Part shown: positions 1 through 7,130 of the stretch, in pieces | How the letters are laid out: every line of letters begins with the position of its first letter | How positions within the stretch are numbered: the stretch's first letter is position 1 | Assembly (NCBI GenBank): GCA_018665505.1 | Contig: JABJCS010000741.1 | Location: forward strand, 1-7,130 | Direction of reading: 5' to 3' | From: Alphaproteobacteria bacterium | GTDB taxonomy: Bacteria; Pseudomonadota; Alphaproteobacteria; UBA8366 | DNA: 7,130 nt | Made by a program: the position numbers and the translations under genes | The notes under the pieces: model-generated | Told to the model about the DNA's origin: nothing | Seen by the model: only the letters and a program-made list of their open reading frames with translations | The model's database searches: none

Positions 1-20
1 ATTCCCACGCAGGTGGGAAT
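1..20. repeat. REP-like palindrome, first of a pair past the operon end
   Basis: A perfect inverted repeat with 8-base arms, ATTCCCAC (1-8) and GTGGGAAT (13-20), around a 4-base loop. The arms resemble those of the dyads at 48-65 and 5854-5877, so I treat the three as one repeat family. It touches the left edge, so its outer arm may extend further. Paired ATTCCCGC/GCGGGAAT palindromes are common intergenic repeats in alphaproteobacteria (from general knowledge, not a search). Confidence 0.7.
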
Positions 21-81: not shown

Positions 82-1608
82 TTACGGCCAAAACTCCGCT
101 CTCAGTTGCTTCTTGTAAAGCTTGCCGGTCGGCAGTCTTGGCAGTTCATCGCGGAAATCGATGGACCGCGGGATCATGTAGGAAGCGAGACGTTCGCGCG
201 CGAAATCCATCAACTCGGTGCGCACTTCTTCATCATGGGTCACACCCTCCGCGGTCTGCACGATGGCTTTCACTTCTTCGCCGAAATCCGGGTTCGGCAC
301 GCCGATCACCGCCACGTCGTGGACCATTGGGTGCAAGCACAAGGCGTCCTCGATCATTTGCGGGTAAATATTCACGCCGCCCGATATGATCATGAACGTC
401 TTGCGGTCGGTGAGGTAAAGATAGCCATCCTCGTCCAGATGCCCGACGTCGCCCATGGTCGACCAGTTCGGATGATGCGGGTGTTGCGCCTCTCGCGTGC
501 GCTCCGGATCGTTGTGATAGGTGAAGACGACACTCTCGCGCTCGAAATAGATGACGCCATCTTCACCCACCCCTAGTACCTTACCGTCATCATCGCAGAC
601 ATGGATCGTGCCCATCACCGCCTTACCGACGGAGCCCGGCTTTCGCAGCCACTCTTCACTGTTAATCCGAGTGGAGCCGTTTCGTTCAGAGGCCGCATAA
701 TATTCCTGCAGGATTGGCCCCCACCATTCGATCATCTGGCGTTTCACCTCAATCGGGCACGGTGCCGCTGCATGGATTGCCATTTTATGGGTCGAGAGGT
801 CGTAGGCCGCACGTTTATCTTCTTCTAGCTTCAACATGCGAATGAACATGGTCGGTACCCACTGGCTATGGGTCACCTTGTACTGTTCGATCAGGCGCAG
901 AGATTCTTCCGCATCAAAGCGCGGCATCATGATCACGGTTCCACCCAAGACATGGGTTCGGTTGGTAAAGGCGAAGGGTGCTGCGTGGTAGAGCGGCGCC
1001 GGAGACAAATAGATCGCGTCTTGATCGAAGCCGTAGGATAGAAATGACTCCAAGAACTCTGGCCCTTCAGAGATATGGCGTTCGCCCAACTCGCGCCGGA
1101 TACCTTTCGGCTTCCCCGTCGTCCCGGAGCTATAGGGCATATGCTCGCCTTGGCGTTCATCGTCGAGGGGTTCGATGGATTGCCCTTCTAGAGCCGCCTC
1201 ATAGGAGTCCCAACCGGCAAGCTCGCCGCCGATAATCAAGCGGTGCGGGCATTGCTCGATCAGTGGCAGTAGTTCACCGGCTACTTTCGACAAACGCTCC
1301 GACGTGATCAGAGCCTTCGCGCCGCAATCGGCGACGATATAGGCGACATCATGGGACGGCAGAAACTGGTTCACCGTCACCAAATAGAGACCACTGCGTA
1401 GCGCTGCCCAGGTCGCCACAAAAAATTCGAGGCGGTTCTCCAAATTGATCGCGAGCGCGTCACCGCGCTTCAACCCGACAGAGCGCAGATACCGTGCCAA
1501 GCGGATCGAGTCTTCGTTTAAGCGCCGATAGGTCAGCACCTCTCCGGTCACGGCGTTGACGGCAGCCGGTTTCTCCGGCGTCTCAGCCGCGTATTTTCCT
1601 GGATACAT
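82..1608 (-). CDS. Acyl-CoA synthetase (AMP-forming), FadD-like
   Basis: Full-length 508-residue member of the ANL adenylate-forming superfamily. It would activate a carboxylic acid with ATP to an acyl-adenylate and then form the CoA thioester in the cytoplasm. Visible motifs are the phosphate loop SSGTTGKPKG (160-169), the A5-type motif YYAASERNG (303-311), the ATP-ribose Asp in MGD (D387), the hinge DRK (401-403), the GGVNIYP motif (410-416) and the C-terminal PTGK with the probable catalytic lysine K496. The N-terminus, MYPGKYAAETPEKPA, is typical of the family and supports the ATG at 1608. No clear ribosome binding site precedes it; the upstream stop codon is only 6 bases away, so translation is probably coupled. 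It is the last gene of the operon. The class is secure, but acyl specificity (fatty, steroid side-chain or aryl acid) cannot be read. Confidence 0.93.
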   Translation of the reverse strand: MYPGKYAAETPEKPAAVNAVTGEVLTYRRLNEDSIRLARYLRSVGLKRGDALAINLENRLEFFVATWAALRSGLYLVTVNQFLPSHDVAYIVADCGAKALITSERLSKVAGELLPLIEQCPHRLIIGGELAGWDSYEAALEGQSIEPLDDERQGEHMPYSSGTTGKPKGIRRELGERHISEGPEFLESFLSYGFDQDAIYLSPAPLYHAAPFAFTNRTHVLGGTVIMMPRFDAEESLRLIEQYKVTHSQWVPTMFIRMLKLEEDKRAAYDLSTHKMAIHAAAPCPIEVKRQMIEWWGPILQEYYAASERNGSTRINSEEWLRKPGSVGKAVMGTIHVCDDDGKVLGVGEDGVIYFERESVVFTYHNDPERTREAQHPHHPNWSTMGDVGHLDEDGYLYLTDRKTFMIISGGVNIYPQMIEDALCLHPMVHDVAVIGVPNPDFGEEVKAIVQTAEGVTHDEEVRTELMDFARERLASYMIPRSIDFRDELPRLPTGKLYKKQLRAEFWP

Positions 1609-1614
1609 GTTTGA

Positions 1615-2526
1615 TTAGTTCGCCCGATAGAACGGACGGTCTCCCTTTACCGTGACGCGGTGGCCATACCGTTCATTCGGCCAGTAATCCCACATCGCCA
1701 AATGCTGCGTCGAGCGGTTATCCCAAAATGCTATCGAGTTTGGCTCCCAGTGAAACCGGACCTGGAATTCCGGCCGCGCCATATGGCGGAATAGAAACTC
1801 CAACAGCGCGTCACTTTCTTCTTCCGTCATACCGCGAATGCGGCTGGTGAAGGTCTCGTTTACATACAACGCTTGTCGGCCTGAGACCGGATGGGTGCGC
1901 ACGATCGGGTGCTCATTGGTCGGGAAAACCGCGTCCTTATCGTCGCCCCCCTTATCCACATAGCGGCCACGAAAGGCGCGTTCGGAATCATGGACCGCCG
2001 TCTTACCCTCGAGAAAGCCCTTCATCTTATCGGACAAAGCGTCATACGCCGCGTACATATTGGCGAATAATGTATCGCCACCAGAGCCGGGCGTGCGGTG
2101 AATTTGCAGCATAGTCCCTAGCGGCGGTTCCTCGTCACAAGAAACGTCCGTGTGCCAATCGGCGCCGTTATTCACGAAGGATTCGCCGTGCGTGTGAATG
2201 ACGAACAGCTCTGGATGTTCGGCGCCACCGGGCGCCGCCGGATGGATGTGTAGTTTGCCAAACCGGCGTGCGAAGGCGATCTGCTGCTCCGGCGTCAATT
2301 CCGGTTGATCGCGAAAGAACAATACATTGTGGTTCGCGAGCGCATGCGTCAAATCGGCAATCTGCGCCTCCGGCACCGCTTCGGTCAGATCGACGCCTTC
2401 AATTTCAACGCCAATCACCGGCGTTATTGGTGTTACGGAAATTGTCTCGTATGAGGCTTCTTGGCGCGCATTGGAGAGCGCTTGTGCGCGGTCCAGCTTT
2501 CCTTCGTGTAACGGTCGATCAGACAT
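1615..2526 (-). CDS. TauD/TfdA-family Fe(II)/2-oxoglutarate dioxygenase, paralogue A
   Basis: 303 residues, against 283 for E. coli TauD. The fold is a single TauD domain that couples 2-oxoglutarate decarboxylation to substrate hydroxylation, often releasing a heteroatom group. The iron triad is H125, D127 and H275. T152 and R286 align with the TauD 2-oxoglutarate contacts T126 and R266. H95 and R290 align with TauD H70 and R270, which hold the taurine sulfonate. TauD Y73 and N95 are replaced by A98 and G121, so taurine is unlikely. The Phe159 pocket position is F185. The C-terminus, GDRPFYRAN, closely matches TauD. Hand counting gives about 69% identity (198 of 288) to the gene at 2537-3457, with which it shares an extra N-terminal stretch of about 25 residues. 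The ATG has a strong ribosome binding site overlapping the upstream stop. Anionic substrate likely; identity unknown. Confidence 0.9.
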   Translation of the reverse strand: MSDRPLHEGKLDRAQALSNARQEASYETISVTPITPVIGVEIEGVDLTEAVPEAQIADLTHALANHNVLFFRDQPELTPEQQIAFARRFGKLHIHPAAPGGAEHPELFVIHTHGESFVNNGADWHTDVSCDEEPPLGTMLQIHRTPGSGGDTLFANMYAAYDALSDKMKGFLEGKTAVHDSERAFRGRYVDKGGDDKDAVFPTNEHPIVRTHPVSGRQALYVNETFTSRIRGMTEEESDALLEFLFRHMARPEFQVRFHWEPNSIAFWDNRSTQHLAMWDYWPNERYGHRVTVKGDRPFYRAN

Positions 2527-2529
2527 TGG

Positions 2530-2539
2530 CCTCTCCTTA
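2530..2539 (-). promoter_or_regulatory. Strong ribosome binding site overlapping the upstream stop codon
   Basis: On the minus strand the sequence reads TAAGGAGAGG, then CCA and ATG. AAGGAG lies 6 bases before the start codon at 2526, and its first two As belong to the TAA of the preceding gene. This fixes the start of the 303-residue dioxygenase and its N-terminal extension, and points to translational coupling. Confidence 0.8.
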
Positions 2540-3457
2540 ATTCATCCGGTGGAAGGGACGCTCGCCCTTAATGGTGACCCGGTGGCCTTTGCGCTCTTCC
2601 GGCCAATAATCCCAAAGCGCCAAATGTTGGGTGCACCGATTGTCCCAAAATGCGATGGAGTTTTCCTCCCATTGGAACCGTACCTGGAATTGAGCTTGTT
2701 CCAAATGTGTGAAGAGAAACTTGAGAAGGGCATCACTCTCAGCATTCTCTAGATCAACGATCTTCGTGGTGAAAGCTCGGTTAACATAGAGGGCTTCCCG
2801 CCCGGAGACTGGATGCGTGCGAACAATCGGATGCTCGGCGCTGGGATAAACCTTATCCGCATCGTCCACACCGCGGTCGGAATAGCGGCCGCGGTAGATA
2901 TGCTCCGACTCATGCATCGCGGTGCAGGTGCGCAAGAAATTCTTCATCGAATCCGACAAGGCGTCGAAAGCCGCGTACATATTGGCGAACAAAGTATCGC
3001 CGCCGACTTCGGGCACTACATGCAATTGCAACATGGTGCCGAGTGGCGGAGTTTCGTCGCAGGAAACGTCCGTGTGCCATCCACCGCCGTTATTCACTTG
3101 CGATTCCTTGTGCGTGTGAATGATAAATAATTCCGGATGTCCTTCCGCATGCGGGGCAGCGGGATGGACATGCAATTCTCCGAACTTGTTGGCAAAATCA
3201 ATTTGCTGATCCGGCGTCAACTCCGGTTGATCTCGAAAGAACAAGACGTTGTGATCCGCCAAGGCGTGACTCAAATCGTCAATCTGCGCGTCGGAGACCG
3301 GCTGCGTGATATCCACACCGGAGACGATACCTCCAATGACTGCTGTCGCGGGCTTGACCTCAATGGTCTCGTAGACGCCTTGAGCGCGCGAATTGGACAA
3401 ATTGCGCGCCCGGCCCGCGCGGCCTTTATAGACTTTCTGTTTCGGCTGTTCCGTCAT
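2537..3457 (-). CDS. TauD/TfdA-family Fe(II)/2-oxoglutarate dioxygenase, paralogue B
   Basis: 306 residues, one TauD domain with all cofactor residues present: iron ligands H128, D130 and H278, and 2-oxoglutarate contacts T155 and R289. The sulfonate-holding pair of TauD is kept as H98 and R293, while TauD Y73 and N95 become A101 and G124. The Phe159 position is Y188. The first 27 residues are basic and polar (seven Lys or Arg before residue 20), not hydrophobic, so this is not a signal peptide. No other Met occurs until residue 142, so the extension cannot be trimmed to an internal ATG. The core LSN.R just before the domain is shared with paralogue A. The start lies 4 bases after the FAD gene stop and has only a weak GGGA as ribosome binding site, suggesting coupled translation. 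Substrate unknown; probably a small anionic organic compound. Confidence 0.9.
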   Translation of the reverse strand: MTEQPKQKVYKGRAGRARNLSNSRAQGVYETIEVKPATAVIGGIVSGVDITQPVSDAQIDDLSHALADHNVLFFRDQPELTPDQQIDFANKFGELHVHPAAPHAEGHPELFIIHTHKESQVNNGGGWHTDVSCDETPPLGTMLQLHVVPEVGGDTLFANMYAAFDALSDSMKNFLRTCTAMHESEHIYRGRYSDRGVDDADKVYPSAEHPIVRTHPVSGREALYVNRAFTTKIVDLENAESDALLKFLFTHLEQAQFQVRFQWEENSIAFWDNRCTQHLALWDYWPEERKGHRVTIKGERPFHRMN

Positions 3458-3461
3458 GGTT

Positions 3462-5003
3462 CTATCCCGGCCTGCTGTCTTCCGCCGCGACGGTGCGCCC
3501 GGCGATGCGTCCGCTGACGAAACATTCCGTCAGGTTCCCTCCAGAAAGATAGAGGCTGCCCCAGATGCCGCCAAGCTCACCTGCCGTATAGAGCCGTGGA
3601 ATGGGCTCGCCATAGGCATTCACCACTCGGCGCTTTTCGTCATGGACAGGGCCGCCCTGAGTATTCGAAACTACCGGCCAAATTTCCGCCAGATAGAACG
3701 GCGGCTTTCGAACAGCGACCATGCTTTTAGGCGGGCGGCCAAATTCGTCGACGCCCTTCTCGCAGTTCTCATTCCACGTCTCGACGGTTGCCGATAATTC
3801 ATCCACCGGACAACCGATCATCTCGGCGAGCTCTTCAATAGAATCGGCTTTGCGCAACAACCCGTTCTGCACTTCATTCAGATTGTCCCGGCTCCATTCG
3901 TAATTCTCATAGGCTCCGTCATTGAACATGGTTTGACCCAACGGGTAGAGCGCCCTGCCCTCATCATCGAGGACCATGTAGCACGGCACGAAAGGCTGCC
4001 CCATTCGGGTGGGATCGACCCGGTCCATGCCGCGATGCCCGGTATCCTGCATATAAGGATCATATTCATTCATGAAGCGCCGCCCGTTATCACCGACGAG
4101 AATCCAACTCATCGGCGCTTCGGCCTCTCGCTCGTCCGGCACCCAATCCGGCAGTCGCTTGGTGCGGATGGCGAAGGGCAAATCCGGATGCCGGAACCCA
4201 TAGGTCCCGTGGAAATGCCACATATGCCAGAGGTCCGCGCCGAGGTCCGTCGTCATGCGGATACCGTCCCCGGTATTGCCGACAAACGCGGCGGAGTAGA
4301 CCGGATTGATCTGCCAGTATTGGCGTTGCATCTCCGGCGCGTGCTCAAACCCACCACAGGCCAGGATGACGCCCTTGCGCGCACCCACGGCGCGCGGGCC
4401 GTTACCATCGTCCAGCCAGATGCCGGCGACCGCGCCGTCCTTGTCCGTGATCAGGCGCCGCGCCGCGACCCCGAGACGCGTCTCAATTCCGCGTTTGGCG
4501 ATGTTGTCCTGCAGTACCTTGAACATGAACGGTCCACCGCTCAGCGCATTCGCGTACGCATAGTCGCGTTTCGGATCAAATCCGGGAATTTCTTCGATCT
4601 GCAAGAAATACATCTTGTCGAAACCCGGAAAAGCATAACTGCCGGGTCGTTCCGTTCGCGTAACGCGGGCGCCGTTCACCTCGGCCAATTCCTCTACGTA
4701 GCCATCGATATGAACCATCTCGTCTACGAACACTTCTAGAATATTGTCCGGCGTCGTCCCATCATTTGTGGCTTTCAGATACTCGAGCGTCGCGTCTCGA
4801 TCATGTGGAAGGCGAAGGCCACCTCCAGAGCAAATCGATATACCACCGGGGTTCGGCATCTTCTCGGCCAACAGAACCTCGGCTCCGGAATCGTGCGCGT
4901 TGATCGCGGCGACGGCGCCGCCGAAACCGTATCCCACCACAATCACATCGAAAGTCTCGTCGAACTGCTCAACGGTTCGGCTTAGCATCATATTCTCACT
5001 CAT
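3462..5003 (-). CDS. FAD-dependent dehydrogenase/reductase (fumarate reductase/KstD flavoprotein superfamily)
   Basis: 513 residues, consistent with a soluble FAD_binding_2-type enzyme. A Rossmann motif near the N-terminus, VVGYGFGGA (G24, G26, G29), is followed by E47, the expected ribose-binding acid. A glycine-rich stretch, GGISICSGGG (53-62), lies against the flavin in this fold. ILACGGFE (213-220) and the C-terminal segment from LYTAGELGG through SGGNLTECFVSGRIAGR (471-503) complete the FAD site. There is no signal peptide or membrane segment, so it is cytoplasmic. Relatives catalyse C=C formation or reduction (3-ketosteroid 1-dehydrogenase, tricarballylate dehydrogenase, soluble fumarate reductase); the reaction here is not determined. 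It sits between the two dioxygenase pairs, 3 bases after one gene and 4 before the next. ATG at 5003 is used; the ATGs of M5 and M6 are alternatives, since no good ribosome binding site is visible at either place. Confidence 0.88.
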   Translation of the reverse strand: MSENMMLSRTVEQFDETFDVIVVGYGFGGAVAAINAHDSGAEVLLAEKMPNPGGISICSGGGLRLPHDRDATLEYLKATNDGTTPDNILEVFVDEMVHIDGYVEELAEVNGARVTRTERPGSYAFPGFDKMYFLQIEEIPGFDPKRDYAYANALSGGPFMFKVLQDNIAKRGIETRLGVAARRLITDKDGAVAGIWLDDGNGPRAVGARKGVILACGGFEHAPEMQRQYWQINPVYSAAFVGNTGDGIRMTTDLGADLWHMWHFHGTYGFRHPDLPFAIRTKRLPDWVPDEREAEAPMSWILVGDNGRRFMNEYDPYMQDTGHRGMDRVDPTRMGQPFVPCYMVLDDEGRALYPLGQTMFNDGAYENYEWSRDNLNEVQNGLLRKADSIEELAEMIGCPVDELSATVETWNENCEKGVDEFGRPPKSMVAVRKPPFYLAEIWPVVSNTQGGPVHDEKRRVVNAYGEPIPRLYTAGELGGIWGSLYLSGGNLTECFVSGRIAGRTVAAEDSRPG

Positions 5004-5006
5004 CTG

Positions 5007-5837
5007 TTAGAACGGCTTGTCGCCCGCAATGGTTACCCGATATCCGGAACGCGTCTGGGGATAGTAATCCCACAGCGCTCTATGTTGCGCGGCACGATTG
5101 TCCCAAAACGCAATCGACTTCGGTCGCCACCGAAAACGGCATTGGAACTCCGGGGTCGCAATGTGCAGGAGCAACATCTCCAACACCGCATCGCTTTCCC
5201 GCTTCGAAAGCCCTTCAATGGCAGTGGTGTAGGAAGTGTTCACATATAGCGCTTTCCGCCCCGTCACCGGATGAGTGCGCACCACCGGGTGTACCGCCGA
5301 GGGGTATCGCGCATCAGGGTCACGGAAGCGTCCTTGATTTCCATAACGGACGCTCAGCGTGTGTTCGGAATCATGCACGGCATTCAGCCCGTCCAACATC
5401 TTTCGGACAGGCTCCGACAGCGCTTCATAGGCACGATACATATTGGCGAACATTGTATCGCCGCCCGCATCCGGGACCTCGTGGATCTGCAAAATGCTGC
5501 CCATGGGCGGCTCGTCATCGCAGGTGACATCACTGTGCCAGGTCTCTCCGACCACCCATTTAGAATCCGCATCTGCATGCACGTTGATCACTTCGGGGTG
5601 CCCTTCCGGGCCCGGCGCCGCCGGATGGACATGCAATTCGCCGAAGTGACGTCCGAAAGCCTTATGTTGATCCAGTGTCAGATCTTGGTCGCGGAAAAAG
5701 ACGACCAGGTGCTCCATCAGTACATCGTGGATTTCTTGAAATGCTTGGTTACCGAGAGGCTGCGAAAGATCGACACCGCTGATTTCGGCGCCGATCACGG
5801 GACTGAGCGGTTTAACGTCAATCGTTTGATAGCCCAA
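5007..5837 (-). CDS. TauD/TfdA-family Fe(II)/2-oxoglutarate dioxygenase, paralogue C (TTG start)
   Basis: 276 residues, one TauD domain. Iron ligands are H101, D103 and H252; T128 and R263 match the TauD 2-oxoglutarate contacts. H71 and R267 correspond to the TauD sulfonate-holding pair, and A74 and G97 replace TauD Y73 and N95. The Phe159 position is L161 and the Phe206 position is Y203. Hand counting gives about 67% identity (185 of 276, no gaps) to the next gene upstream, paralogue D. The start codon is TTG. No in-frame ATG occurs in the 50-base gap, a purine-rich ribosome binding site precedes the TTG, and the N-terminus aligns residue for residue with paralogue D. The C-terminus ends at GDKPF, shorter than TauD by a few residues. 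The gene reaches to within 3 bases of the FAD gene. Probably an oxygenase for an anionic substrate, not taurine. Confidence 0.9.
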   Translation of the reverse strand: MGYQTIDVKPLSPVIGAEISGVDLSQPLGNQAFQEIHDVLMEHLVVFFRDQDLTLDQHKAFGRHFGELHVHPAAPGPEGHPEVINVHADADSKWVVGETWHSDVTCDDEPPMGSILQIHEVPDAGGDTMFANMYRAYEALSEPVRKMLDGLNAVHDSEHTLSVRYGNQGRFRDPDARYPSAVHPVVRTHPVTGRKALYVNTSYTTAIEGLSKRESDAVLEMLLLHIATPEFQCRFRWRPKSIAFWDNRAAQHRALWDYYPQTRSGYRVTIAGDKPF

Positions 5838-5840
5838 GTT

Positions 5841-5852
5841 CTCCCCCTCCCC
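5841..5852 (-). promoter_or_regulatory. Purine-rich ribosome binding site for a TTG start
   Basis: The minus strand reads GGGGAGGGGGAG, then AAC and the TTG at 5837. The AGGGGG portion lies about 6 bases before the start. This site, with the paralogue alignment, decides the TTG start of the dioxygenase gene. It begins only one base past the foot of the hairpin at 5854-5877, so that hairpin could affect ribosome access. Confidence 0.7.
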
Positions 5853-5853
5853 A

Positions 5854-5877
5854 TCATTCCCGCCTTCGCGGAAATGA
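5854..5877. repeat. REP-like hairpin inside the operon
   Basis: Arms TCATTCCCGC (5854-5863) and GCGGAAATGA (5868-5877) pair in 9 of 10 positions around a 4-base loop; the one mismatch is 5859 with 5872. It fills most of the only sizeable gap in the operon, between two paralogous dioxygenase genes, and shares its arms with the dyads at the left edge. No T run follows, so it is more likely a repeat insertion that may act on mRNA processing than a terminator. Confidence 0.75.
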
Positions 5878-5887
5878 CGAGCGCCTT

Positions 5888-6718
5888 CTAAAACGGCTTA
5901 TCGCCCGCGATCGTCACCCGGTAGCCATGGCGGACTTGTGGGAAATAGTCCCAGACAGTGCGATGTTGCGCGGAGCGATTGTCCCAAAACGCGACCGACT
6001 TCTCACGCCAGCGAAAGCGGCAATGGAATTCCGGAGTTGCAATGTGATCACATAGCATTTTCAGAATAGCGTCGCTCTCGTTCTTATTCAGTCCCTCAAT
6101 TCGCGTCGTGAAGTTCTCGTTCACGAACAACGCTTTCTTCCGCGTGACAGGATGCGTTCGGACGATCGGGTGAAGCGATTCCGGAAAGGAGTCATCACCG
6201 TCCCGTAACTTCCCGGATGCACCAAAGCGGTCACGGTGAACATGGGCGGATTCGTTCCACGCCTTCAATCCCTCGATCATTTCCTTAATCGGGTCGGAAA
6301 GCGCTTCATAGGCGGCGTACCCGCTGGCGAACATCGTATCGCCGCCGGATTCCGGAATCGTGTGCAAATGCAGGATGCTGCCCATCGGCGGCTCCGCGTC
6401 GCAAGACACATCGGAATGCCATTTCATACCCGCAACCACCTTGGATTTTTCATCCGCATGGATGGTGATGATTTCGGGGTGCCCTTCCGGCGCCTTGGCG
6501 CTCGGGTGGATGTGCAGTTCACCGAAATGGCGACCGAATGCCTTATGTTCGTCCAAGGTCATTTCCTGATCGCGAAAAAAGATCACCTGATGCTTCATCA
6601 ATGCATCATGCAATTCCTGATAGGTCTGATTGCCAAGCGGCTTGGAAATATCAACGCCGCTGATCTCCGCACCGATGATGGGACTTAGCGGATCGACTTC
6701 GATGGTTTCGTAAGACAC
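5888..6718 (-). CDS. TauD/TfdA-family Fe(II)/2-oxoglutarate dioxygenase, paralogue D (GTG start)
   Basis: 276 residues, one TauD domain, same length as paralogue C and alignable with it without gaps. Iron ligands are H101, D103 and H252; T128 and R263 match the 2-oxoglutarate contacts of TauD. H71 and R267 keep the sulfonate-holding pair; A74 and G97 replace TauD Y73 and N95. The Phe159 position is H161, a polar residue unlike any of the other three paralogues. The region 154-175 differs most from paralogue C and is where substrate choice is expected to be set. The GTG start follows a clear AGAAGGA ribosome binding site in the 15-base gap after the upstream gene. Predicted cytoplasmic and co-transcribed with its neighbours. 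Substrate not known; a small sulfonate, sulfate ester or carboxylate is plausible. Confidence 0.9.
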   Translation of the reverse strand: MSYETIEVDPLSPIIGAEISGVDISKPLGNQTYQELHDALMKHQVIFFRDQEMTLDEHKAFGRHFGELHIHPSAKAPEGHPEIITIHADEKSKVVAGMKWHSDVSCDAEPPMGSILHLHTIPESGGDTMFASGYAAYEALSDPIKEMIEGLKAWNESAHVHRDRFGASGKLRDGDDSFPESLHPIVRTHPVTRKKALFVNENFTTRIEGLNKNESDAILKMLCDHIATPEFHCRFRWREKSVAFWDNRSAQHRTVWDYFPQVRHGYRVTIAGDKPF

Positions 6719-6726
6719 TGCTGATT

Positions 6727-6733
6727 TCCTTCT
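6727..6733 (-). promoter_or_regulatory. Ribosome binding site for a GTG start
   Basis: AGAAGGA begins directly after the TAG stop of the upstream gene and lies 8 bases before the GTG at 6718. It supports GTG as the true start of the 276-residue dioxygenase and the reading of these genes as one transcript. Confidence 0.75.
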
Positions 6734-7130
6734 CTAACCCTGATAGAATGGGCGGCCAGATTTTCGAACCCAAATGCGCACTAGATGACGCCGGTCTTCC
6801 GGCTCCTCCGCATCCCGGAACGCGGTGCGACGATGCCCCAGGCGACGGTTGTTGACGATCTGAATTTGCCCGCGTTCGAACTCAAACCTCTTACAGAGAT
6901 TGTCGATCTCCGTCGTTCGGCAAAGCGCATCAATGGCCGCGCGCGACTCCGAATCGAGTTCTTCGCCTTTCATCTGATAACCGTGCTCGACCAGGCGTGG
7001 CGAGAAATTCACGTTCAGCGCATCACCATCCACTTCGAAGATCGGCTTGTGAGACAAGCGTTCTTCGTTCGGCGCATGTTCCATCTGGCGGTCGAAATGG
7101 AAAGGTTGATAGAGCCGTTCCAAAACCTCG
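6734..7130 (-). CDS. Divergent TauD/TfdA-family dioxygenase, C-terminal part only
   Basis: About 131 C-terminal residues are visible, and the frame stays open to the window edge. The TTG at 7123 is an internal leucine codon, not a start: the residues before and after it (EVLERLYQPFHFDR) match the interior of the TauD/TfdA-like branch that carries an L-Y-x-P-F/Y-x-F-D-R motif. The expected second iron ligand is the His in LGHRRTAF, and RRHLVRIWV follows with the likely 2-oxoglutarate arginine 15 residues later. The end, GRPFYQG, echoes the TauD C-terminus. The HxD half of the metal site lies beyond the edge, so activity cannot be judged. It is much less similar to the four full paralogues than they are to each other, so it is probably an older member of the pathway and not a product of the local duplications. 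The gap to the next gene is 15 bases. Confidence 0.82.
   Translation of the reverse strand, partial: EVLERLYQPFHFDRQMEHAPNEERLSHKPIFEVDGDALNVNFSPRLVEHGYQMKGEELDSESRAAIDALCRTTEIDNLCKRFEFERGQIQIVNNRRLGHRRTAFRDAEEPEDRRHLVRIWVRKSGRPFYQG

Follow-up and report, generated by a model that had tools for sequence, protein, structure and literature searches.

A conserved gene cluster of TauD-like dioxygenases, a flavoenzyme and an acyl-CoA ligase from a TauD-rich alphaproteobacterial lineage

In E. coli TauD, taurine is bound by His70 and Arg270 and its amine is placed by Asp94, Asn95 and Ser158 (PMC9304159). For the ketosteroid dehydrogenase KSTD1, it is proposed that Tyr318 takes the hydrogen as proton acceptor and that Tyr487 hydrogen-bonds the keto group (PMC8220720). 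At the genome scale, SAR202 bacteria have expanded oxygenase paralogues, namely flavin monooxygenases and also ring-hydroxylating dioxygenases, the latter at up to 62 copies (PMC6946804; SAR202 expansions also in PMC8406191), and it was suggested that they allow a broader range of resistant organic matter to be oxidised (PMC6946804). Putative tauD genes are reported in SAR86 without a recognisable sulfite reductase, and the authors ask whether the genes have another function (PMC11582366). The window analysed here (the whole stretch of 7,130 nucleotides, contig JABJCS010000741.1) carries on its minus strand one partial and four complete genes of the PF02668 (TauD/TfdA) family, together with a flavoenzyme and an acyl-coenzyme A (CoA) ligase. 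The arrangement is real and conserved, and the larger point is its setting in TauD-rich genomes, in parallel to the SAR202 expansions. As in SAR202, one oxygenase family reaches dozens of copies in a bacterial clade. In contrast to SAR202, the family here is the Fe(II)/2-oxoglutarate (2OG) TauD/TfdA family, the bacteria are Alphaproteobacteria by record title, and a defined multi-oxygenase operon is present.

Gene layout and conserved order

The original prediction listed four full TauD-like genes and one partial gene, a flavin adenine dinucleotide (FAD) dehydrogenase and an acyl-CoA synthetase on one strand. All of these frames are present among the open reading frame (ORF) calls, with families matching by Pfam. 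The span of 1615-7130 given for the whole set is too short, as the CoA ligase lies outside it. The genes are compared below with three related loci, in Rickettsiales RS378 (L003, a TaraRedSea contig), Rhodospirillaceae SP8 (L004) and Alphaproteobacteria UBA6544 (L005).

6734..7129, minus strand: T0, C-terminal part (131 residues, cut at the window end) of a distant gamma-butyrobetaine-dioxygenase-like PF02668 protein (by Pfam, with full-length relatives in L003-L005)
5888..6718, minus strand: T1, TauD-like Fe(II)/2OG dioxygenase, 276 residues, GTG start, 87-88% identical to its counterpart in L003-L005
5856..5877, plus strand: short palindromic repeat within the 50 bases that separate T1 and T2; same pattern beside T1/T2-type TauD genes in genomes G002 and G008
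5007..5837, minus strand: T2, second TauD-like dioxygenase, 276 residues, TTG start as called; 67-68% identical to each T1 and not at the matching place in L003-L005
3462..5003, minus strand: FAD-binding dehydrogenase (PF00890), 513 residues, with ketosteroid-dehydrogenase-type residues Y317, Y485 and G488 (by profiles, alignments and model)
2537..3457, minus strand: T3, TauD-like dioxygenase, 306 residues (by Pfam and alignment)
1615..2526, minus strand: T4, TauD-like dioxygenase, 303 residues, the sole one of T1-T4 over the NF007104 cut-off
82..1608, minus strand: acyl-CoA ligase, 508 residues, AMP-binding and AMP-binding_C; closest models PRK13390 and FadD4, both under cut-off

From the ORF coordinates, the gaps in the order T0-T1-T2-flavoenzyme-T3-T4-ligase are 15, 50, 3, 4, 10 and 6 bases. 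The description of the gaps as mostly 3-15 bases is thus correct for five of the six, but not for the T1-T2 gap. Together with the conserved order, the short gaps suggest that the genes may be co-transcribed.

A search of other genomes for the same arrangement, a flavoenzyme with two or more TauD neighbours, had been proposed with the original prediction. Here, genome contigs were scanned with a profile from 16 aligned flavoenzymes, and the 80 flavoenzyme loci used are the best of 95. At least two TauD-type genes lie directly beside the flavoenzyme on the same strand in three of them (L003-L005), and a TauD-type gene occurs anywhere in the locus in 18; these counts are lower bounds, the flanks being of unequal length. 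At L025, a TauD-type gene on the opposite strand adjoins the flavoenzyme, and a second lies one gene away. L003, L004 and L005, all from alphaproteobacterial metagenome-assembled genomes, share the order T0, one TauD-type gene, flavoenzyme, T3, T4, ligase, with 70-88% protein identity to the operon genes of the window. T1 corresponds to the lone TauD-type gene that precedes the flavoenzyme there, and T2 is an extra copy in the window; its best match in 43 genomes of the taxonomic order of these relatives is only 69% identical and is the T1 gene of L004. The gene arrangement recurs in 3 of these 43 genomes. Flavoenzymes at least 84% identical to that of the window were likewise found in 3 of the 43, and in a class sample of 385 genomes only in G002, the genome of L004.

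The proportions of nonsynonymous (pN) and synonymous (pS) differences were 0.065-0.195 and 0.68-0.88, respectively, in all 18 window-relative comparisons of six genes, with T2 left out for want of a counterpart and T0 compared over its 131 residues only. Each of the six genes is under purifying selection, with synonymous sites near saturation. Since three other genomes retain the gene order and pN is low against pS, the multi-oxygenase arrangement is not a product of chance.

Marine origin is stated in the record title for RS378 only. A flavoenzyme cluster (P0002) that is 86% identical to the window's enzyme has a Tara source, and the lineage of the window and the other relatives are probably marine as well. 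The window ends inside T0 and just past the ligase, and the outer neighbours were read from the relatives only. The gene after the ligase in L003-L005 encodes an mmdA-like carboxyltransferase, with an amidase gene further on, on the other strand, in L003 and L004. A hydantoinase-like gene lies divergently before a PrdB/GrdB-like gene in L003 and L004; the L005 contig ends there. A profile scan of ten L003 proteins gave hydantoinase, carboxyltransferase, amidase and thiamine pyrophosphate (TPP)-enzyme types. In the more distant locus L006, the flavoenzyme is directly followed by a carboxyltransferase and a T0-like gene is present; no T1-T4-type TauD gene was found in the 21.5 kb of this locus.

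Proposed pathway, active-site residues and alternatives

We propose, with a probability of roughly 45%, that the genes form a catabolic operon with several TauD-type hydroxylations, desaturation of a ketone by the flavoenzyme and activation with CoA by the ligase. With Fe(II), 2-oxoglutarate and O2, T1-T4 would hydroxylate carbons beside a sulfonate, sulfate or carboxylate group of an organic compound other than taurine, possibly alicyclic, and T0 would act on another position or substrate. Where the oxyanion is a sulfonate, sulfite would be set free and a carbonyl would remain. The flavoenzyme would then take two hydrogens beside the carbonyl, as ketosteroid and cyclohexanone dehydrogenases do, and make an alicyclic ketone ready for ring opening. 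The ligase would convert the acid product to a CoA thioester for the carboxyltransferase-like enzyme encoded beside it in the relatives. The presence of several oxygenases probably reflects related positions or related substrates; both the order of the steps and the class of substrate are put forward here as suggestions. A dedicated catabolic route, with several oxygenases acting on anionic substrates, had been predicted before, and it agrees with the conservation of gene order, with purifying selection on the genes and with the retained His70 and Arg270. The accompanying statement that the products are oxidised is upheld in part, being sharpened to ketone desaturation by the residues of the flavoenzyme.

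T1-T4 score 233-240 bits with PF02668 (gathering cut-off 27), and the His-X-Asp...His metal triad of the TauD/TfdA superfamily, equivalent to H99, D101 and H255, is found in all four. They were compared in TauD numbering in an alignment of 75 TauD-type sequences that includes four proteins of solved structure. T1-T4 share with E. coli TauD (1GQW) the iron ligands H99/D101/H255, the 2OG residues and the pair H70 and R270, which contact the oxyanion; T126 and R266 are among the residues conserved. In contrast, the positions of D94, Y73, N95, F104 and S158 are all replaced: all four proteins have alanine at 73, glycine at 95 and cysteine at 104, while position 94 is A/V/N/N and position 158 is V/T/I/A in T1/T2/T3/T4. 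None of the four retains the pocket for the taurine amine (Asp94, Asn95 and Ser158, with Tyr73 nearby). Because the iron, 2OG and oxyanion residues are kept and the amine-pocket residues are replaced, it is very likely that T1-T4 are active as 2OG oxygenases, with a substrate that carries an oxyanion and is not taurine. Use of taurine itself by T1-T4 was rejected on the loss of the amine pocket.

That the cluster serves sulfur scavenging, with true taurine dioxygenases freeing sulfite from taurine or simple sulfonates, is improbable. PF02668 membership would agree with it, and E. coli TauD is the best match in the PDB of T1, T3 and T4. T4 scores 314.8 bits with the taurine dioxygenase model NF007104, just over its cut-off of 313, and T3 nearly reaches it (311.0), followed by T2 (299.7) and T1 (291.4). 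However, pocket residues Y73, N95 and S158 are altered in all four proteins, a transporter is not among the profile-annotated L003 neighbours, and such a role would presumably have no need of four copies, a flavoenzyme and a ligase.

The oxygenases fall into two pairs, T1/T2 (67% identical) and T3/T4 (66%), with 50.5-53.8% identity across the pairs. The pairing could also be expected if the extra TauD copies were drifting tandem duplicates with no separate function, as could the lack of T2 at the matching place in L003-L005 and the palindromic repeat in the T1-T2 gap, which recurs adjacent to genes of the T1/T2 type in G002 and G008. We consider drift about as improbable as taurine scavenging, given the low pN of T1, of T3 and of T4, in each case against a near-saturated pS, and the iron, 2OG and oxyanion residues that T2 retains.

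T0 had been described as a partial relative of the other oxygenases. It passes PF02668 at 50.8 bits but has no close paralogue in the window: its identity to T1-T4 is 27-31%, and no E-value is better than 0.011. Among named models, gamma-butyrobetaine dioxygenase comes nearest (29.2 bits), followed by VioC arginine hydroxylase (26.5) and TmpA (25.0), and T0 falls far short of the cut-off of each. The full-length counterpart in L003, 326 residues as read there, reaches 49.5 bits with the gamma-butyrobetaine dioxygenase model TIGR02409, also under the cut-off of 414.75.

The flavoenzyme most likely desaturates a ketone, because residues of the ketosteroid dehydrogenase (KstD) type are present at its predicted active site. 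Y317, Y485 and G488 align with Y363, Y536 and G540 of the ketosteroid dehydrogenase AcmB (7P18), which we take to be equivalent to the catalytic residues of KSTD1, in which Gly491 has the role of the catalytic glycine. The three residues are invariant in all 16 aligned flavoenzyme sequences, including that of the window. In Fcc3, of the fumarate reductase type, the substrate-binding and catalytic residues are Arg402, His504 and Arg544; in an alignment read by eye, these positions are Y317, N447 and Y485 in the flavoenzyme. A fumarate reductase or flavocytochrome c role was rejected on these residues; sequence scores do not separate it from KstD. No NCBIfam cut-off was reached among the matches shown, the best being TIGR01813 (183.9 vs 285.45), and the 3-ketosteroid dehydrogenase equivalogs are far off (PRK12844, 181.9 vs 789; PRK07843, 156.7 vs 788). 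The enzyme may therefore work like a 3-ketosteroid dehydrogenase though it is not classed as one by curated cut-offs. An AlphaFold model, built from 16 sequences, has a mean predicted local distance difference test (pLDDT) score of 73.9. By Foldseek TMq, KstD comes first (0.70-0.71), followed by delta4-5alpha-dehydrogenase (0.64) and cyclohexanone dehydrogenase (0.60-0.63), with lower values for urocanate reductase (0.54-0.61) and flavocytochrome c (0.51-0.56). The overall fold and the AcmB Tyr/Tyr/Gly positions are thus shared with KstD (AcmB 7P18; KSTD1 4C3X), and the fold also with cyclohexanone dehydrogenase (8AM3); in contrast, the identity in structural alignments is only 18-24%, and the curated KstD cut-offs are far above the scores of the flavoenzyme.

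The ligase matches the FadD4-like acyl-CoA ligase models NF038341 and NF009929 over nearly full length, but at 597.7 and 602.4 bits it does not reach the cut-offs, which are 850 and 951. The weaker matches include models of bile-acid and steroid CoA ligases. These matches, as well as the KstD-type residues and fold, would suit a pathway of steroid or bile-acid catabolism, with the flavoenzyme as steroid dehydrogenase, side-chain activation by the ligase, and oxygenases that act on a sulfated or taurine-conjugated steroid. We judge this quite unlikely. The flavoenzyme is far under the KstD cut-offs, as given above for PRK12844. The extradiol dioxygenase model TIGR03213, taken as a proxy for the steroid ring-cleavage enzyme, is over its cut-off in none of the three relatives' genomes, with weaker matches in two of them; none of the 14 control genomes passes either, so this search has no positive control. 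Equally unlikely is a natural-product tailoring cluster rather than a catabolic one, although many natural products are tailored by 2OG oxygenases and the T proteins match the PtlD and ScoE models under cut-off and PlaO1 in the PDB, as no polyketide or peptide synthase is among the ten profile-scanned L003 proteins and the hydantoinase, carboxyltransferase, amidase and TPP-enzyme neighbours are interpreted as catabolic.

Several observations weigh against the proposed catabolic operon itself. R270 is also present in RdpA and PlaO1, and His70 also in PlaO1, so that neither residue proves a sulfonate substrate. For the flavoenzyme, the profile search ranks urocanate reductase (151.1 bits) slightly above AcmB (147.4) and flavocytochrome c (145.3), and urocanate reductase is the top match in a second sequence search too. 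The Foldseek E-values place 7p18 first, then urocanate reductase and one flavocytochrome c, and only then KstD 4c3x. It should be mentioned that the pLDDT is under 50 at the active-site segments 314-339, 444-448 and 482-489; because the model is weak at these segments, the KstD-type argument rests on the sequence residues. Neither a transporter nor a sulfite enzyme is among the profile-annotated neighbours in the ten L003 proteins scanned. Finally, no TauD-type gene was found within ~1.5 kb in any of 12 loci of the order with 58-65%-identical flavoenzymes (one flank being shorter in L101), which indicates that the flavoenzyme family is not generally tied to TauD.

TauD-family expansion and a probable PrdB-like selenoprotein

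TauD-family oxygenases had been said to occur usually singly or as two, which fails in this lineage. At E <= 1e-3, the three relatives G001, G002 and G003 have 57, 103 and 62 PF02668 copies, and G004 has 16; tandem pairs and a triple occur elsewhere in related genomes. All 11 genomes of the family of G002 have from 22 to at least 103 PF02668 matches at E <= 1e-20. In the order, 22 of 43 genomes have at least 22 (many at least ~45) and the other 21 have 0-11. Across a class sample of 289 genomes, G002 leads the matches listed with 105 first-look candidates, ahead of genomes with 70, 51, 43 and 42. A single control genome out of 14, that of E. coli, gave a match. Genome completeness and contamination are not given, which makes single counts soft, the agreement over 22 genomes being firmer; the window's own genome lies outside the count. 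As in SAR202, dozens of paralogues from one oxygenase family are thus found in many genomes of a clade. No description of a TauD expansion of this size, or of this operon or a pathway with this gene set, turned up in searches of open-licence PMC full texts (preprints were outside their scope), in agreement with the original prediction, which knew of no described pathway with exactly these genes.

Other T1/T2-type genes were read in 12 regions of 11 genomes, five of the regions having T1/T2-type genes in tandem. No common pathway partner was recognised in these 12 regions, in which most neighbours are without profile annotation. Three tandem T1-type TauD genes, 68-71% identical to T1, lie at L152 6982-9688 (G002). 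T1-type genes of L153, L154, L155 and L157-L159 (in tandem in L153-L155) have common neighbours, namely proteins with a MALK.ILV start and proteins of ~350-370 residues starting with '..LHILPL' or similar.

Directly upstream of T0 in L003-L005 is the PrdB/GrdB-like gene (PF07355; L003:2669-3883), with an in-frame TGA at a UPNC motif, which probably encodes a selenoprotein belonging to the operon. With its C-terminal half as the query, a PrdB-like gene was found in 22 of the 43 genomes of the order, identical to the 22 TauD-rich ones, and in none of the other 21; one of the 22 (G034) is a short, weak match, and the genomes are related, so that descent alone may explain the co-occurrence. The TGA is conserved in 28 of the 30 PrdB-like loci read (L174 has CGA and L189 is truncated), which overlap somewhat, with two neighbouring copies each in G007 and G008. 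T0 or TauD-type genes lie within ~1.5 kb of the PrdB-like gene in only three of the 30 loci, which are the operon. Of the genomes G001-G004, SelB exceeds its cut-off in G002 and G003 only; 2 of the 14 controls pass. PrdB was among the most abundant selenoprotein families in the Global Ocean Sampling survey, with 235 sequences (PMC2398784).

We tentatively suggest, as a possible but rather doubtful extension, that an uncultured, probably oceanic alphaproteobacterial lineage oxidises resistant organosulfur or carboxyl-rich alicyclic matter with up to ~100 TauD-family oxygenases per genome, the operon being one module and including the PrdB-like selenoprotein. If so, TauD/TfdA would join the oxygenase families reported as expanded in SAR202 bacteria, with an operon of testable enzymes named, and a selenoprotein of a common marine type would gain a pathway and gene context. 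Since the oxygenase steps require O2 and iron, there would also be a bearing on the oxidation of dissolved organic matter.

Other flavoenzyme settings and palindromic repeats

More distant flavoenzymes adjoin a single TauD-type gene in L012, L014, L021 and a Sodalis plasmid, and luciferase-like monooxygenases in Shinella and L024; others occur in loci that contain UbiD-like and TctA genes. The flavoenzyme family thus looks like a general partner of degradative enzymes. In a search of plasmids, the best flavoenzyme relatives were only 55% identical and in other settings. The Sodalis plasmid has one TauD/TfdA gene and an ABC transporter in this neighbourhood. On the Shinella plasmid (L001 9989-17270), the 55% relative lies near luciferase-like monooxygenases, a rhodanese-like protein and a TauE/SafE-type exporter, a neighbourhood that suggests organosulfur use.

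The palindromic repeat at window 5856-5877 recurs at L152 8748-8817 and 9753-9774 and at L163 10595-10616 (the same site as in L145). It was found in 3 of 167 loci; most of the fetched loci are TauD- or flavoenzyme-centred, and an association of the repeat with TauD genes is not shown by this count. Downstream of the ligase, window 1-20 has a short inverted sequence, ATTCCCAC...GTGGGAAT, which is possibly a related repeat or a terminator remnant.

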